In this document: positions 18,751 to 27,037 of the stretch, piece after piece
How positions within the stretch are numbered: position 1 is the stretch's first letter
Layout of the letters: the number at the start of each line of letters is the position of its first letter
Source: Planctomycetota bacterium
GTDB lineage: Bacteria > Planctomycetota > Phycisphaerae > Phycisphaerales > SM1A02
Direction of reading: 5' to 3'
Length of the DNA: 64,000 bases
NCBI GenBank assembly: GCA_003671025.1
Contig: QWPW01000001.1
Coordinates: 1 to 64,000 of the forward strand
Translations under genes and position numbers: made by a program
Notes under the pieces: generated by a model
What the model saw: only the letters and a program-made list of their open reading frames with translations
What the model was told of the DNA's origin: nothing
Database searches by the model: none

Positions 18751-19917
18751 ATGATGGCTGACCAACGCATCCCGATCGATATCCCCAATTCGCCGACGAG
18801 CCTCACGGTGGGACGCGGCGCAATCACGCGGTTGGCAGCGATTTTCGCCGCCGAACAGATCCCACTCGCGCAGCGTTGCGTGCTGCTTGTGAGTGATGCC
18901 AACGTCGCGGCACATGCCGCGAGAGTCCACCAGACGCTTCTCGCCGCAGGCGCGCGGGTTTCAGGCGTCGAACTGGTCGCAACCGAAACCGACAAGTCGA
19001 TGCGCGCGATCGAAGTCGTGTGGAACGCGCTGCTCGAAGCAGGCGCATCGCGCGGCGCGCTGCTGGTTGCTGTCGGCGGCGGACTCATCGGAGACGTCGC
19101 GGGATTTGCCGCCGCGAGTTACTTACGCGGCATCGATCTGGTGCAGATTCCAACCACGCTCTTAGCCATGGTCGATGCGTCTATCGGCGGCAAGACCGGC
19201 ATTAATCTGACCCTGCCTCGCGGTGGACTTGGAAAAAATCTCGCGGGCGCGTTCTGGCAACCGCGCGTGACCATCGCCGACAGCGACACGTTGACAACTC
19301 TCGGGCAACGCGAGTTGCGCGCGGGACTGGCCGAATGCGTCAAGCACGCGGTGATCGCCGGCGGCGCGCTGTGGACGCAACTCGAGTCCGACGCCGCGAA
19401 TCTCGCGCAAGCGGGTGTCGTTGCGCGCCAAGCGGGCAACGGTGGGACGCAATGCGTGGAGAGTCTGCGGGCGCTGGATCGCCTGATTCCTGCGGCAGCG
19501 CAGGTGAAAGCGCAGATCGTGGCTCGTGATCCGCATGAACGTTCGGAGCGAGCGTTGCTCAATCTCGGGCACACGTTTGGTCACGCGATCGAGACGATTC
19601 CTGAACTGAAACTTAATCACGGTGAGGCGGTGGCGATTGGACTTGTCGCCGCTCTGCGCACTGCAGTCGCGCTTGCGATGTTGGACCCCAACGATGAAGC
19701 TCGCGTGAAGGCGTTGCTTGTCGCGTGCGGCTTACCCACTTCGTTGTCTCAACCGGTTTCCGCCGCAGAAATTCGCCGGCGCATGGGCTTCGACAAGAAA
19801 AACGACGGCAGCACATTGCGACTGATTCTTCCGCGCGCGATTGGCCGAGTCGAGATCGTGAGCGATCCATCAAGCGCCGCAGTGAGCGCGGGCCTCGTCG
19901 CCATCGGCGCGGTCTGA
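18751..19917 (+). CDS. aroB: 3-dehydroquinate synthase AroB
   Basis: AroB cyclises DAHP to 3-dehydroquinate, the second step of the shikimate pathway, using NAD and a divalent metal. The 388-aa product carries the NAD-binding GGGLIGDVAGFAAASYLRG stretch, then IPTTLLAMVDASIGGKTGIN, FWQP, the metal/active-site region AECVKHAVI, and LLNLGHTFGHAIE with two metal-ligand histidines. An insert of about 15 residues (QAGVVARQAGNGGTQ) follows the AECVKHAVI helix. Two ATGs lie 3 bp apart at the start (18751 and 18754), and neither has a clear ribosome binding site. No other aro gene is adjacent. Confidence 0.96.
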   Translation: MMADQRIPIDIPNSPTSLTVGRGAITRLAAIFAAEQIPLAQRCVLLVSDANVAAHAARVHQTLLAAGARVSGVELVATETDKSMRAIEVVWNALLEAGASRGALLVAVGGGLIGDVAGFAAASYLRGIDLVQIPTTLLAMVDASIGGKTGINLTLPRGGLGKNLAGAFWQPRVTIADSDTLTTLGQRELRAGLAECVKHAVIAGGALWTQLESDAANLAQAGVVARQAGNGGTQCVESLRALDRLIPAAAQVKAQIVARDPHERSERALLNLGHTFGHAIETIPELKLNHGEAVAIGLVAALRTAVALAMLDPNDEARVKALLVACGLPTSLSQPVSAAEIRRRMGFDKKNDGSTLRLILPRAIGRVEIVSDPSSAAVSAGLVAIGAV

Positions 19918-19983: not shown

Positions 19984-21408
19984 ATGCGAGTCGCCGCGAT
20001 CGTGAATCAGAAGGGTGGTTGTGGCAAAACCACAACGGCCGTCAACCTCTCCGCACTCTTGGCGCGCGAGGGAAGTCGCACGCTCTTGGTGGACATGGAT
20101 CCACAGTCGCATTGCGCGGCGGGGCTCGGGGTTCCCGACCACGGCATTGAGCGCACCATCGCGGATGCGCTGCTGTGTGATCACAGTCAGCCGCCGCGCG
20201 CGAGCGATTACCTCTGGGAAGTCGCGCGCAATCTGATGCTCGCTCCCTCGAGCGTCTCGTTGGCCGCGCTCGAAGCGCCCAATGGTCCGCTCGCTTCTCG
20301 GCTTGATCGCGATCGTCGTTTGGCGCGCGTGCTCGCGGCGTGGCAAGACCAATTCGATTGGTGCATCGTCGACTGTCCGCCCACAATTGGTTTGCTCTCG
20401 TTCAACGCACTGCGCGCGGCGGACATCGTGATCATTCCGGTAGAGACTGGATATTTCAGCTTGAAAGGCGCGGAAAAGCAGGCGGAAATGATGCGCACGG
20501 TTTCCGCGCGCTTTGGTCGCGACATTCCGTTTCACATCCTGCCCACGCTGGTCAATGACTCACGCTCGCTTTCGCGCGATGTGTTGGCGCAACTGGGCAA
20601 ACGCTTCGCCGATTCGTTGCTTCCCTTCGCCGTGCATGAGCATGATGAACTGCGTGAGGCGGCCAGTTACGGTCAGGCGATTACCGAGTTCGCGCCGACA
20701 TCCGCGGCCGCCGAGGAGTTCACCGTGTTGGCGCAGTGGCTGCAGAAACAGACCAACACACCCTCGGTCCTCCTCGAGGTTGAGCAAACGCAATTGACGA
20801 GTATTGAAACATTCGCCGCCGTCACCATGCCCGCAATGAATGCGTGGAGCGCGAGTGCGGTGCACGATCCCACGCCATCGAATGGACGCACGCACGGTGG
20901 TTCGGTCAACACCTCTGCAACGGATGTCGCCGTTTCTCAGCGAAGCGCAGCTGCAACCAATACCAGCGCGCCCGTCTTGGCTGCGCCCGGACGCGCGGCG
21001 GATCTCGTCATGCGACTGCGCGCGCTCGCCGATCGGTCGCGTCAAGCAGCCACGGTGGGTGGAGGGTTTGGAGTGCGCGTTAGTCGCAACGGAATTGCTT
21101 TGTTTTCCCAGCCTTCAACGCCGCGCGCGCTCTCGGTGATTGGTGATTTCAATGACTGGAATCCCCATGCAACGCCGTTGCTGGTCAGCGCGGATGGAAC
21201 TCGATTGGAGGCAGCAGTCACGCTCGCTGCCGGTCGTCATTGCTATCGAATCGTGGTGGACGGGATCGAAACGCTCGATGAGTTCAATCTGCATCGGCGG
21301 GGGTCAACCACCGACATGGGCGTTAATCTGATCGAGGTTCCTGAGTTTCTCGCAACTCACGACGCATGCGCAAATGTGAGTGGATCTGAGCAGGGTGGAC
21401 AATCATGA
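19984..21408 (+). CDS. ParA/Soj-type ATPase fused to a C-terminal CBM48-like domain
   Basis: Residues 1-255 of this 474-aa protein are a ParA/Soj ATPase with deviant Walker A KGGCGKTT (10-17), switch I region LVDMDPQ (35-41) and Walker B VDCPP (129-133). The family normally drives positioning of DNA or large complexes. A linker (about 256-360) is rich in T, S, A and N. Residues about 365-455 form an immunoglobulin-like domain with VIGDFNDWNPHATPL (385-399), the hallmark of the CBM48/AMPK-beta glycogen-binding fold, followed by AGRHCYRIVVDG. The ATP site looks intact. The start of the next gene overlaps its stop as ATGA. No parB or replication gene is nearby, so a chromosome-partition role is unlikely. 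Confidence 0.85.
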   Translation: MRVAAIVNQKGGCGKTTTAVNLSALLAREGSRTLLVDMDPQSHCAAGLGVPDHGIERTIADALLCDHSQPPRASDYLWEVARNLMLAPSSVSLAALEAPNGPLASRLDRDRRLARVLAAWQDQFDWCIVDCPPTIGLLSFNALRAADIVIIPVETGYFSLKGAEKQAEMMRTVSARFGRDIPFHILPTLVNDSRSLSRDVLAQLGKRFADSLLPFAVHEHDELREAASYGQAITEFAPTSAAAEEFTVLAQWLQKQTNTPSVLLEVEQTQLTSIETFAAVTMPAMNAWSASAVHDPTPSNGRTHGGSVNTSATDVAVSQRSAAATNTSAPVLAAPGRAADLVMRLRALADRSRQAATVGGGFGVRVSRNGIALFSQPSTPRALSVIGDFNDWNPHATPLLVSADGTRLEAAVTLAAGRHCYRIVVDGIETLDEFNLHRRGSTTDMGVNLIEVPEFLATHDACANVSGSEQGGQS

Positions 21409-22811
21409 GTATGGTGCACGGACCGTTTGATTCTGTCGCGGGCGCATTTCTTGATGCACCCAATCCTGTGCGCGCTGGGGCCGTGAGTGCTCGCCGCACC
21501 ATCGCCTTGGTGGGCAGCATGCCTTCGCCGGTTGGCTTGTGGTTGCGTCAAGTGGCGGAGAGTCACGCGCGCGAGCGCGGCCCCGTGTGCATGCTGCGAC
21601 TCGAGAGCGACGCAGTGCAGCTCCAACTCTTTCGCGCCACAGGACTGCGCCCGCCCATGCGCGCCGATGCCTCGCTCGAAGAGATGATTCGCGCCCTCGC
21701 GCCCATCGTGACCAACTGGATTGTCGTTCCCGCGAGCGGCGAACTTGCGGCGATCCCTGCGGGCGCGACCGACTTGCTGTTGCTGTCCTCGACGGATGAG
21801 CCTGCGGTGCTCGCGGCCTACACGCTGCTCAAGCAGGTCGCCGTCGCTCGAACCGAAGGCGTGTTGCGCGGCGCCAGTCCACCGATCGCCCTACAGATGC
21901 TCGGCTCGGCCCTTGAAGAATGCGCCGACGCGGCGGAGTCGCTCGCTGTCACTGCGCGTGAGTACTTGCAGTTGGATTTGCGCTTTCACGGCGGAATTCA
22001 TCGCATTGCGCCCACCGAACCCACGTTGCAGAAGATCTTCGACTACGACCCGCCACGCCTCGAGCAGGTGTTCGAGATGATTCGTCTCGCCGAGTCGAAC
22101 AACAGCAGCAGCGCGCGCGGTGAACGATTTGCGCCGCGTGCCGAACGCGTGCGACCGCGCACATCCGCGCCAACAGATTTTGCTTCGGCGCATCTCGCGC
22201 CAACTGCGACGCCCGCCAACACGCGCGCAGCAGATCAGGCGCTCGACGCCGCTCCGATTCCCTTCATGGTCAGCGACGCGCCAGTCTTTACGGGCGCGCG
22301 CGGTCCTGCCCCGGTGTCTTCGCCGCGAATCGATCCGATGCCCACGCGAGCATCGAGCGCACCACGCGCGACCATCGCGCCCGCGCCCGCAGTCGCATTC
22401 GCCGTCCCCTCACTGGCGCCGATGCCGAGTCTTCCTGTGCGCGTTCGTGCAGTCGAGGGTGAACTACCCTCGCCGCTCACTGCGGAACTCGCAGGTCTCG
22501 TGTTGCTTCCGTTGAGAGCTCCGCGCGAACCTTCGATCGAACTCGCCATCGACGGCGCAGGTCAGTTGCATGTGATCGGACACGCTCGCGTGATGACCGC
22601 GCTCCTGCGCGTGCGCGCGTGGGCCATCGAACACGCGACGATTCTCCGACTCGCACATCCTGCGTTGGTGAGCGCTGATGCCCCGATGATTGATGTGGTG
22701 GTCACAGAATTGCGCGAGGCGCAGCCGATGGATGGCGCGACGGTCTACCTCTTCACTCATGTGGAGATGGCTGGCCGACATGGGCATCTCGTGCAACTGA
22801 TCAGTGTCTGA
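21405..22811 (+). CDS. Unknown protein with a MinD/FlhG-like fold lacking the P-loop
   Basis: The 468-aa product is translationally coupled to the ParA-CBM48 gene by a 4-nt overlap. Residues about 28-180 resemble a MinD/FlhG ATPase in outline: a first strand RTIALVGS, then PSPVGLWLRQVAESHARERG where a P-loop and helix would be, a strand VCMLRLES, and ATDLLLLSSTDEPAVLAAYTLLKQV, which parallels the MinD segment ending in DAYALIK. The Walker A lysines are absent, so nucleotide hydrolysis is unlikely. A proline/alanine-rich linker (about 230-370) leads to a small C-terminal domain (about 375-468). The fold assignment is inference from weak similarity and order of elements; no family is certain. 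Confidence 0.6.
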   Translation: MSMVHGPFDSVAGAFLDAPNPVRAGAVSARRTIALVGSMPSPVGLWLRQVAESHARERGPVCMLRLESDAVQLQLFRATGLRPPMRADASLEEMIRALAPIVTNWIVVPASGELAAIPAGATDLLLLSSTDEPAVLAAYTLLKQVAVARTEGVLRGASPPIALQMLGSALEECADAAESLAVTAREYLQLDLRFHGGIHRIAPTEPTLQKIFDYDPPRLEQVFEMIRLAESNNSSSARGERFAPRAERVRPRTSAPTDFASAHLAPTATPANTRAADQALDAAPIPFMVSDAPVFTGARGPAPVSSPRIDPMPTRASSAPRATIAPAPAVAFAVPSLAPMPSLPVRVRAVEGELPSPLTAELAGLVLLPLRAPREPSIELAIDGAGQLHVIGHARVMTALLRVRAWAIEHATILRLAHPALVSADAPMIDVVVTELREAQPMDGATVYLFTHVEMAGRHGHLVQLISV

Positions 22812-23949: not shown

Positions 23950-24480
23950 ATGGACGCGACTGGCGGCACCAATTCCAACGTGAGCGAGCACCCGCCGTAC
24001 CCGCTGCTCCCAAACACAGATGCGCGCGAGTCATCGCTCGCGCCCGCATTGACCATCGAAGCGGTGGCTCGTCGCCGATTCGCGGCACTCTTGGTGATGG
24101 TCGGCGCCGGCGCGCTGCTGCTCGTCGCATGGATGCTCACGCCATCACCAAACGGTTTCGGGACCCACCACGCGCTCGGACTTCCTCCGTGTTCATGGCC
24201 GGAACGCTTCGGAGTACCATGTCCTTCTTGTGGCATGACGACGGCGTTTGCGTACGCGACCAAGGGGCGATTTGTCGCGAGCTTTCTCGCTCAACCAATG
24301 GGTTTCCTGTTGGCGATGGGAACAGGAATGGCCTTCGTCGGCGCGGCGTGGACGCTCGCAAGTGGGCGCACAGTGTGGCCAGTGTTTGAACGAATCTGGA
24401 CTGCGCGCGGCGCGTGGTTTCTCGGCTTGGCCATGCTGCTCGCGTGGGGCTACAAGGCCGTGATCATGAAGTGGGGCTGA
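23950..24480 (+). CDS. DUF2752 membrane protein
   Basis: The 176-aa product has three or four hydrophobic helices and the DUF2752 signature: an N-terminal helix, then LPPCSW, and VPCPSCGMTTAF with C91 and C94, followed by a region around QPMGFLL. The function of this family is unknown; the Cys-x-x-Cys suggests metal or disulfide chemistry at the membrane. The first 35 residues are polar and of low complexity. It lies just before the two lipoprotein genes on the same strand, with a 44-bp gap. Confidence 0.85.
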   Translation: MDATGGTNSNVSEHPPYPLLPNTDARESSLAPALTIEAVARRRFAALLVMVGAGALLLVAWMLTPSPNGFGTHHALGLPPCSWPERFGVPCPSCGMTTAFAYATKGRFVASFLAQPMGFLLAMGTGMAFVGAAWTLASGRTVWPVFERIWTARGAWFLGLAMLLAWGYKAVIMKWG

Positions 24481-24524
24481 GATAGTGTTGGTGACAATCC
24501 GTTGGAGTACTCGAGCGACCTGCT

Positions 24525-25214
24525 ATGAAAACTTTGATTCGCACTCAACCATCATCTTCGCTTGTCGTTCGTGTGTTCTTGGGATCATTGGTGGCCAGTG
24601 CGATCGCCGCGCAAAGCGGTTGCGTCGCGGCCGCAGTCAGCGCGATAGGTCAGCAGATTGAGCGCGGCAAAAAACTTGACGTGCCCGCGGCCTACGACGG
24701 CCTTGAGAATCACACCTCCGCGGTCATCGTCAACGCTGACTACGCGACGCTGGTCGAACATCCCGATGTCGTGGGAAACGTCACCGCCAATGTTGCGGTG
24801 CGCATTCGTCGTGAAGTCAAAGGCGCTTCCGTGCTGCCGCCGGGCGAGGTGCTCGACTGGCAATATCGCACGCCGCAATGGCGCGCGATGCCTTACGGCG
24901 AAATCGCTAAAGAACTCGGAGTCGAGCGACTCGTGTTCATCGACCTCTACGAATACCGCCTGAATCCCGTGGGAAACAGCTATTTGTGGGATGGCGTCGC
25001 TGGCGCCAACATCGGCGTGATCGAAGCAGACGGCTTGGCGCCCGATGAGTTTGTCTTCACCACCAATCTCGTGCAACGCTTCCCTGACAAGGATGGTGTG
25101 GGAAAAGAATCCGCGCGTCGTGAAGACATTCAGCGCGGCTTGATCACGCTGTTTGTGCAACACGCTTCGTGGATCTTCTACCGTCACATCGAAGACAAGT
25201 ATCCGCAGACTTGA
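24525..25214 (+). CDS. Probable lipoprotein, 229 aa, unknown
   Basis: The N-terminus is a type II-like signal (basic MKTLIRTQ, hydrophobic stretch to residue 29) ending QSGC, an imperfect lipobox with Cys33. The rest is a soluble alpha/beta domain: VIVNADYATLVEHP, then PYGEIAKELGVERLVFIDLYEYRLNP, and a C-terminal FVQHASWIFYRHIEDKYPQT. I do not recognise the family. The length and layout resemble its neighbour at 25298, and both probably sit in the same envelope process. Confidence 0.65.
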   Translation: MKTLIRTQPSSSLVVRVFLGSLVASAIAAQSGCVAAAVSAIGQQIERGKKLDVPAAYDGLENHTSAVIVNADYATLVEHPDVVGNVTANVAVRIRREVKGASVLPPGEVLDWQYRTPQWRAMPYGEIAKELGVERLVFIDLYEYRLNPVGNSYLWDGVAGANIGVIEADGLAPDEFVFTTNLVQRFPDKDGVGKESARREDIQRGLITLFVQHASWIFYRHIEDKYPQT

Positions 25215-25297
25215 CTCGGTGCCGCGCCGCTGCTCGACCGCGCGCTGACGGCACGTTGACCGCACATTGAACGCACGCCTCTTGTTGGATCTCTCTC

Positions 25298-26011
25298 ATG
25301 CCACAAACTCATCACTATCTTCGCGCACGCTCCCTTGCTGCACTGGCGCTTGCGGGAGGCATGCTCGTCGCGCTTCCCTGCATGCAGTCGTGCAACATCG
25401 TTACTCCGGCGGCCTATGTTCTCGAAGGCCCAGGCATGATCGACGCGGAGTACATCCTGCTTGATCGCAAGACCGTGGTGTTTGTCGATGATCCGCGCAA
25501 CATTCTTCCGCGCACTTCGCTGCGCACGACTATTGGCGATCTCATTTCGTTTGACTTGATGGAACGCAAGATTCTCACTTCCACGGTGGCGACACGCGAT
25601 GCCATTGGCGTCTCGCGCGCAAGCGGTGGGGTGAGCGCGGATCGACTGAAATCACTCGAGGCCATCGGGCGCGCGCTCGACTGCGCGCAAGTGATTCAGA
25701 TTCAACCAACGGTCTTCGATGTCGCGGGACGATCGGACACCAACGGCATTCGTCCGACCGCGATCGTTCGCGTCAAAGTGATCGATGTGGAGGCGCGCGT
25801 TCGCCTCTATCCCGTCGCAGAAGTGCTGCCCGAAGGCCGCGAAATCATCGCGTCAATTCGCGAGAGCGATCCCGACTCACTGCGCACCCGCGGCGGTCGC
25901 GCACAGGCGGAAGAAGCGTTGGCCAAGGTGTTGGCCCGCGAGATTGCTGAGCTGTTCTACAAGCATGATCGCATTGATCTAGGCGAAAACCTCGGAACGC
26001 GAAAGCAGTAG
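25298..26011 (+). CDS. Probable lipoprotein, 237 aa, unknown
   Basis: The protein begins with a signal peptide (hydrophobic about 12-28) and a run PCMQSC, an imperfect lipobox. The mature part opens with a predicted beta strand and RKTVVFVDDPRN, then a helix (TTIGDLISFDLMERKI), a DRLKSLEAIGRALDCAQVIQIQPTVFD segment, and a helical end (EEALAKVLAREIAELFYKHD). The last element is like the ending of the preceding lipoprotein. No enzyme motif is seen. It is 83 bp after its neighbour and 6 bp before the next gene, so it is probably in an operon. Confidence 0.65.
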   Translation: MPQTHHYLRARSLAALALAGGMLVALPCMQSCNIVTPAAYVLEGPGMIDAEYILLDRKTVVFVDDPRNILPRTSLRTTIGDLISFDLMERKILTSTVATRDAIGVSRASGGVSADRLKSLEAIGRALDCAQVIQIQPTVFDVAGRSDTNGIRPTAIVRVKVIDVEARVRLYPVAEVLPEGREIIASIRESDPDSLRTRGGRAQAEEALAKVLAREIAELFYKHDRIDLGENLGTRKQ

Positions 26012-26017
26012 TCGCTG

Positions 26018-27037
26018 ATGGGCTTAGTGGAATCTTCCGACGCGGCGCGGCCTGCGTTGTCACAAGACGCGACTCTCTCGCTCGGCGCGCGCGACCAACC
26101 CGCTGCGCTTCACGTTGTTGCACTCGAAGAGGCTGGGCCATGCACGCTGCGCGCGCTGGCGCAATCGGCGCGCGCGGGTGACTCGGTGTTGGTACTTGGT
26201 GCCCGTCGCGGCGTTGATGCGCTGCGTGAGTACGGACTTGCGCGCACCGTGACTTGCGAAAATGTTTTACGCGTCGGGGGTTCGTGGCGACTCTGCGTTC
26301 GAGCGATTGCCGCTGCCGCCAAGGGCTTCAATCGCATCACTGCCTACGGCGTGCGCGCGCAGCAGATCATGCACCGCGCGGGATGTCTCCATTGCGCGCG
26401 CGGGCATCTCGATGCCTCGGCGCATGTGTCTGCGCGATGCGATGACAATCGCGCATCACTACGACGCGCGCTGGGAATCGCAGCGCATGAAGCAGCAGTC
26501 TTGGTTGTGGCCGAGCCAGCGGCGTGGACCGATCTTCGCTTCATTGCCCACGGCGCAAGCATGGCCTACGTCGGCGGCGCGCGGATACGGCTTATCGTTT
26601 CGCCCAATGTTCCCGCACTAGCCGAAGCGGGTTCGTGGATGACGCGAGCGGCCGGAGAACTCGCACTGCACGCGGATGAGCGCGCGGAAGAACCGTGGCA
26701 ACTGCTCGATGCGATCGACGGAATCATCATGGATCGCGATGGCGGAGTGGAAGCGCCCGTGCGTTGCATTGGTGATCGCACTCGTCATCCGCTCGATGCA
26801 CGTTGGAAACTGAGTTTGGGAACGCCTTCGCCGTTGCCTGCGTTGGTGGCGCTTGGCGCAGGAATTCCTGCGCTCGTGCACAGCGACATTGATCTCGGTG
26901 CGCACTCGACATCACCACTGGTGACGCGGTTTGATCGCAACATCGCGGCACTTGCGCGCGCGTTCGCCGCGGTCGCGCAACGGGTTCCTCATGCGCACAC
27001 GCTTCAACCAAGCAGCGCAAGCGCCGCGTCGCGATAG
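26018..27037 (+). CDS. Glycosyltransferase-4-like protein, divergent
   Basis: The 339-aa product is not confidently assigned. An N-terminal half with ALAQSARAGDSVLVLGARRG and a C-terminal half with RASLRRALGIAAHEAAVLVVAEP and LVALGAGIPALVHSDI have the spacing of the two Rossmann-like lobes of GT4 glycosyltransferases. The catalytic E-x7-E signature is not evident, so it may be inactive or something else. A Cys-x-x-Cys (GCLHCARGH) lies at about 122-130. Its 3' end overlaps the convergent amidohydrolase by 34 bp. Confidence 0.4.
   Translation: MGLVESSDAARPALSQDATLSLGARDQPAALHVVALEEAGPCTLRALAQSARAGDSVLVLGARRGVDALREYGLARTVTCENVLRVGGSWRLCVRAIAAAAKGFNRITAYGVRAQQIMHRAGCLHCARGHLDASAHVSARCDDNRASLRRALGIAAHEAAVLVVAEPAAWTDLRFIAHGASMAYVGGARIRLIVSPNVPALAEAGSWMTRAAGELALHADERAEEPWQLLDAIDGIIMDRDGGVEAPVRCIGDRTRHPLDARWKLSLGTPSPLPALVALGAGIPALVHSDIDLGAHSTSPLVTRFDRNIAALARAFAAVAQRVPHAHTLQPSSASAASR

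Follow-up and report, generated by a model that had tools for sequence, protein, structure and literature searches.

The ParA-type ATPase encoded in the window (the whole 64,000-nucleotide stretch of DNA analysed) carries at its C-terminus a domain that, by sequence and by fold, is of the AMPK glycogen-binding type, and its gene is followed directly by that of a partner with an FlhG-like fold and no P-loop. This fusion is present in most of the class Phycisphaerae. The best reading is that the pair forms a ParA-type system for positioning or sensing, in which the tail binds alpha-glucan and the partner is a pseudo-FlhG, and whose contact with glucan is degenerating in the genus of the window; I place the probability of this reading at roughly 40%. 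The features on which it rests are collected in Table 1.

Table 1. Features of the ParA-CBM locus, with positions in the window unless another locus is named.
Feature	Position	Strand	Basis or remarks
aroB (3-dehydroquinate synthase)	18751..19917	+	Pfam; upstream neighbour limited to families f1 and f2 (neighbourhood clusters)
ParA-CBM gene	19984..21408	+	474 aa, ATG start; open reading frame of the window
ParA/Soj-type ATPase domain, residues 1-258	19984..20757	+	AAA_31, Soj fold, phmmer
Deviant Walker A NQKGGCGKTT, residues 8-17, signature lysine K10	20005..20034	+	Homologue alignment
Disordered linker, residues 271-336	20794..20991	+	pLDDT <50; not conserved
Short helix, residues 337-356, RAADL motif (the RAAEL element)	20992..21051	+	DSSP helix in AlphaFold model
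E-set/CBM48 domain, AMPK-beta type, residues 361-455	21064..21348	+	PDB profile match; pLDDT; residue counts
Partner gene	21405..22811	+	468 aa; overlaps ParA gene by 4 nt; directly 3' order-wide and in several other class families
Partner N-terminal short motif FDSVAGAFLD (consensus LAxLFL)	21426..21455	+	56/84 partners by strict pattern
Partner pseudo-FlhG/MinD domain, residues 29-236, no Walker A	21489..22112	+	VIA, hhalign, P-loop count
Partner C-terminal alpha/beta domain, residues 345-468 (~120 residues)	22437..22808	+	pLDDT about 90
PMT/ArnT-like glycosyltransferase genes (other loci)	L045 12272-14308; L046 6334-8979; L048 1824-3512; L052 7599-9329; L042 10758-12383		

The preliminary description of this DNA had placed an intact ParA/Soj ATPase at residues 1–255, and had read a four-nucleotide overlap between the stop of its gene and the start of the next. 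Both hold, the domain boundary moving only to residue 258. The domain matches Pfam AAA_31 with an E-value of 8.4e-41, and a ParA crystal structure was matched by phmmer at 1.4e-36. The KGGxGKT[TS] P-loop with its signature lysine, and the Walker A' and B motifs (LLVDMDPQ and IVDCPP), are intact, and NQKGGCGKTT is invariant in 26 aligned homologues, the C excepted. In the AlphaFold model, the ParA part superimposes on Soj with a VIA Z-score of 35.9 (1.8 Å, 250 residues aligned, 36% identity), and the identity of the domain to solved Soj structures ranges from 30 to 36%. Since the genome also encodes a separate Soj (contig C66) and a ParB (G000:C4), while the ParA-CBM gene lies on C1, ParA-CBM is an extra ParA.

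The E-set/CBM48 pattern noted earlier at about residues 365–455 is likewise confirmed, with the boundaries corrected to 361–455. As a single sequence, residues 383–453 match Pfam AMPK1_CBM with an E-value of 1.1e-4 and 22.7 bits, short of the curated cut-off of 26.8. A profile built from 23 relatives gives as its first PDB match the glycogen-binding domain of AMPK beta-2 (E 3.7e-13), with beta-1 next, followed by branching enzymes, pullulanase and plant glucan phosphatases. The absence of an E-set domain from a predicted structure had been named as grounds for abandoning the assignment; AlphaFold models a confident beta sandwich over residues 361–455, with pLDDT mostly above 90 (91–98 across residues 361–450). 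Small proteins with an open frame of ~130–170 aa, consisting mainly of a CBM48, are also found in several Planctomycetota (L175, L178, L181, L183, L184).

In order to follow the fusion through the class, a sample of 120 Phycisphaerae genomes was used, that of the window (G000) included. The fusion is found in about 73 of these, two of them (G323 and G358) being counted without the C-terminus having been read; among the others, two possess an orthologue lacking the CBM (G395 and G030), 44 only the other ParA, and one a fragment that is unassigned. It is nearly universal among genomes of the genus, extends to the other families of the order, and recurs in most of those of the class. Records of named genomes also put it in Phycisphaerae: the scan of these comprised the best 80 loci, for which the phylum named was Planctomycetota, except for one labelled Limnohabitans, probably mis-binned. 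The possibility that the two parts are always separate in homologues, and the fusion a sequencing artefact, is thus discarded. One planctomycete outside the class also has a ParA-CBM48 fusion, in which the site is intact (L171, G086:C274).

AMPK is the human energy sensor, and its beta subunit uses the glycogen-binding module as a glycogen sensor; in beta-1, the glucan contacts include W100, K126, W133, L146 and N150. I mapped these positions onto the CBM sequences of the class, following the proposal of the preliminary description that the aromatic residues be searched for glucan contact. In the 52 sequences from outside the genus of the window the site is largely kept, with both tryptophans and an Arg at the K126 position found in 52/52, an Asn at N150 in 46/52, and a Phe or Tyr at L146 in 49/52. 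Within the genus, in contrast, all 13 sequences have kept W100, but they have Glu, Thr or Ala in place of W133 and no longer possess N150. In the protein of the window, the W100 equivalent is W392 (in FNDW), and the W133 and N150 positions are E429 and V447, although the AlphaFold model shows that the fold is retained. Among the best 80 named loci, a CBM is present in 61 of the 74 readable ParAs, and both tryptophans in 48 of these 61 by profile alignment. In a quick ParA tree, the clade holding the family of the window (SH-aLRT 99) has 37 rows, of which 29 show a lost or degenerate CBM, compared to one of 61 outside. Loss and decay are therefore nearly restricted to that clade.

These counts bear on a first alternative, in which the CBM48 serves chiefly for contact between proteins or for autoregulation, and the system positions another cargo or the division site, with no role for sugar. 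The loss of the glucan contacts from all 13 sequences of the genus while the fold persists speaks for this, as does the lack of a recognised glycogen gene in the neighbourhoods read, but a Trp pair and an Arg without exception outside the genus, with the Asn nearly as constant, would be difficult to account for if no carbohydrate were bound. I consider this alternative rather unlikely. In the genus of the window itself, under the best reading, the module probably survives as a relic or serves as an interface between proteins, and the ParA-partner core is still conserved.

The partner is not a MinD ATPase. The preliminary description had called it MinD-like, which stands for the FlhG/MinD fold of residues 29–236, but not for the activity, as a Walker A motif or P-loop was found in none of 84 homologues; it is therefore read as a pseudo-ATPase. 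The model of the partner matches FlhG over residues 28–206 with a VIA Z-score of 12.0 (3.8 Å over 160 residues), the next family reaching 8.8; Foldseek recovers the FlhG/FleN fold with an E-value of 1.2e-6, and the profile of the partner matches that of FlhG in hhalign with an E-value of 3.4e-9. Hhalign of the partner against the ParA profile gave no match (E 0.58), and thus no sign that the partner is a copy of the neighbouring ParA. The full protein has no sequence match in Pfam, NCBIfam or the PDB, and for the C-terminal domain no family was found in Pfam or NCBIfam; a SecDF match of the C-terminus, with an E-value of 0.06, is weak and was treated as chance. In most partners, the LAxLFL motif precedes a disordered stretch.

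The partner gene adjoins the 3' side of the ParA gene in most of the order, often with the four-nucleotide overlap, and by profile it also lies directly downstream in families f97, f98, f99, f100 and f101. In f106 and a second f101 genome, the gene directly downstream resembles a divergent copy of it, and none was found in the f9, f96, f105, f108 and f109 loci examined. ParAs without a CBM keep the partner, and others keep the CBM without a partner. The ParA is thus constant, with the CBM and the partner each optional, and since each can be absent independently the two do not form one obligate device. The RAAEL motif, between the linker and the CBM, was found in 71 of 89 ParAs with a partner gene and one of 17 without, these being raw counts uncorrected for phylogeny, and it is retained in eight of the 12 ParAs that lost the CBM. 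As the motif tracks the partner and not the CBM, this pattern of sequence suggests that the helix may be the docking site for the partner.

A tie to glycogen metabolism, looked for at the suggestion of the preliminary description, did not emerge from gene content, as the fusion does not follow the GT3 synthase across the class. The synthase search covered GT3 and GT5. The GT5 synthase GlgA (TIGR02095) is above cut-off in none of the 120 genomes, with the controls positive. The eukaryote-type GT3 synthase is present in 61 of 120, but in none of the 41 genomes of the family of the window, and it shows no association with the fusion (33/73 fused and 27/46 unfused genomes, p 0.19). In the genome of the window neither synthase was found, nor did any branching enzyme reach the model cut-off. 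Across the sample, GlgB passes its cut-off in 14 genomes, and is commoner with the fusion (13/73 versus 1/46, p 0.009), a weak difference uncorrected for phylogeny. Alpha-glucan phosphorylase is found in 107 of 120 genomes, that of the window included, and is equally common with and without the fusion. Canonical glycogen genes were therefore rejected as a functional link, given that GlgA is nearly absent and neither GT3 nor phosphorylase is associated with the fusion. In the genome of the window, an alpha-glucan phosphorylase, malQ and a CBM48 amylase lie together, adjoining a sugar ABC transporter (L054 2605-8955, G000:C8).

A glycogen ligand would nonetheless fit one aspect of these data, in that the family without a synthase is the one where the CBM decays. 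Elsewhere, 40 of the 73 fused genomes have neither a GT3 nor a GT5 synthase, and many thus have an intact site although no synthase was recognised. A different alpha-glucan, or a maltodextrin, may be the ligand, or a further type of synthase may be present.

The near-universal phosphorylase could also support a second alternative, a glucan-dependent metabolic switch and not a positioning system, in which glucan would sequester the ATPase and so alter the action of the pseudo-FlhG, for instance on the flagellum or envelope. The use of the same module by AMPK beta to sense glycogen, and the FlhG fold of the partner, are in keeping with such a switch. However, the true FlhG of this genome, with an intact P-loop, sits beside flhF on another contig (L004), and the phosphorylase does not distinguish fused from unfused genomes. 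I regard this switch as improbable.

The family-conserved block at 23950-27037 of the window, next to an M19 dipeptidase gene, encodes a DUF2752 protein, a 339-aa protein, and two proteins of 229 and 237 aa, both without a Pfam family and with lipoprotein-like N-termini. In f4, f5 and G018, a PMT/ArnT-like membrane glycosyltransferase gene is found immediately 5' of the ParA-CBM gene. Along with a match of the ParA to Pfam CBP_BcsQ (E 2.4e-14), this could point to a BcsQ-like ParA that controls how a surface polysaccharide is exported, its CBM recognising either the polymer or a precursor of it. However, the NCBIfam BcsQ model (TIGR03371) scores 102.1 bits against a cut-off of 157.85, no cellulose synthase or other bcs gene was recognised among the neighbours, and the glycosyltransferase link is restricted to certain lineages and absent at the window, so that this proposal has a slim chance of being correct. 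That the protein simply partitions a chromosome or plasmid as other ParAs do, its C-terminal tail being irrelevant, is very improbable despite its Soj-like fold and its NCBIfam ParA_partition score of 108 bits (under the cut-off of 180), since the tail is conserved class-wide, no parB was found beside the gene, where the neighbour is the pseudo-FlhG, and the Soj and ParB of the genome lie elsewhere. The canonical partition and BcsQ identities were both rejected on these scores and neighbours.

The reading as a glucan-binding positioning or sensing system is favoured by the intact catalytic motifs and Soj fold, the AMPK-beta match and the contacts conserved outside the genus, and also by the linked partner, the RAAEL motif that tracks it, the coincidence of the decaying clade with the lack of GT3, and the status of the protein as an extra ParA. 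It is weakened by the lack of a class-wide association with GT3 and of a neighbouring glycogen gene, and by the independent absence of CBM and partner. The adaptor of known ParA systems is a separate protein, which also counts against an ATPase that has the tether for its cargo built in.

By analogy with other ParAs, the ATP-bound dimer would sit on the nucleoid. The partner would dock at the tail helix, and regulate or deliver the ATPase, while the CBM48 tail would bind an alpha-glucan polymer or oligosaccharide. The CBM could then tether the ATPase to a glucan body, which would be distributed over the nucleoid and divided between the daughter cells, or the level of glucan could turn the ATPase on or off, the module having a comparable role in AMPK. 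In the genus of the window, the step that ties the system to glucan would have decayed. The scheme may imply that a glucan body is positioned, or that the system is linked to division, and glycogen positioning in particular is plausible, if unproven. The more specific proposal, in which cargo is bound directly through the AMPK-type module, with the pseudo-FlhG, such that glycogen is placed or partitioned, or glucan stores are coupled to cell organisation, in bacteria lacking FtsZ, is rather unlikely.

DNA, carboxysomes and chemoreceptor arrays are among the structures that ParA ATPases organise, and no report of a storage polymer as ParA cargo was found in the literature searched. If the more specific proposal is correct, this would be the first known bacterial system that positions or spatially senses a storage polysaccharide. 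The fusion is also a candidate spatial regulator in a class whose division is unexplained: FtsZ (TIGR00065), the usual division protein, was matched in none of the 120 genomes at an E-value of 1e-20, with 13 of 14 controls giving a match. The idea of a storage-polymer cargo can be tested directly, given a fusion that spans the class and has an intact glucan site, and the relatives, in which the sugar site is intact, decayed or lost, provide a natural series.

Neither a ParA with a glycogen-binding domain nor ParA-based glycogen positioning was found in the literature searched, within which the statement of the preliminary description, that no system with this architecture is described, is upheld. 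The parts are known; their combination, its conservation across the class and the pseudo-FlhG seem not to have been described there, and what the fusion suggests is a system, so far undescribed, by which a sugar store is placed or sensed. Carboxysome positioning by McdA/McdB, and other ParA/MinD cargo systems, have been reported (PMC10241942, PMC6328274). As in McdA/McdB-type systems, a ParA ATPase gene lies here beside that of a dedicated, partly disordered partner, in a genome with more than one ParA, but the sugar-binding module is here part of the ATPase itself, a pseudo-FlhG domain is found in the partner, and no organelle genes lie nearby. With BcsQ, the protein shares a ParA-like fold and a link to polysaccharide, but it falls under the family cut-off and has no recognised bcs genes nearby; with the Soj/ParA of ParABS, it shares the ATPase domain, but it has no adjacent ParB and possesses an extra helix and the CBM. 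The partner resembles FlhG/FleN, a MinD-like ATPase, in the fold and profile of its N-terminal domain, but lacks Walker A, has an additional C-terminal domain, and is not encoded in a flagellar locus. Compared to the glycogen-binding domain of AMPK beta, the CBM differs in its fusion to a bacterial ParA, in Arg for K126 and Phe or Tyr for L146, and in the decay of the site in the genus of the window, but it is a domain of the same type (CBM48), with both stacking tryptophans and the Asn present in most of the class.
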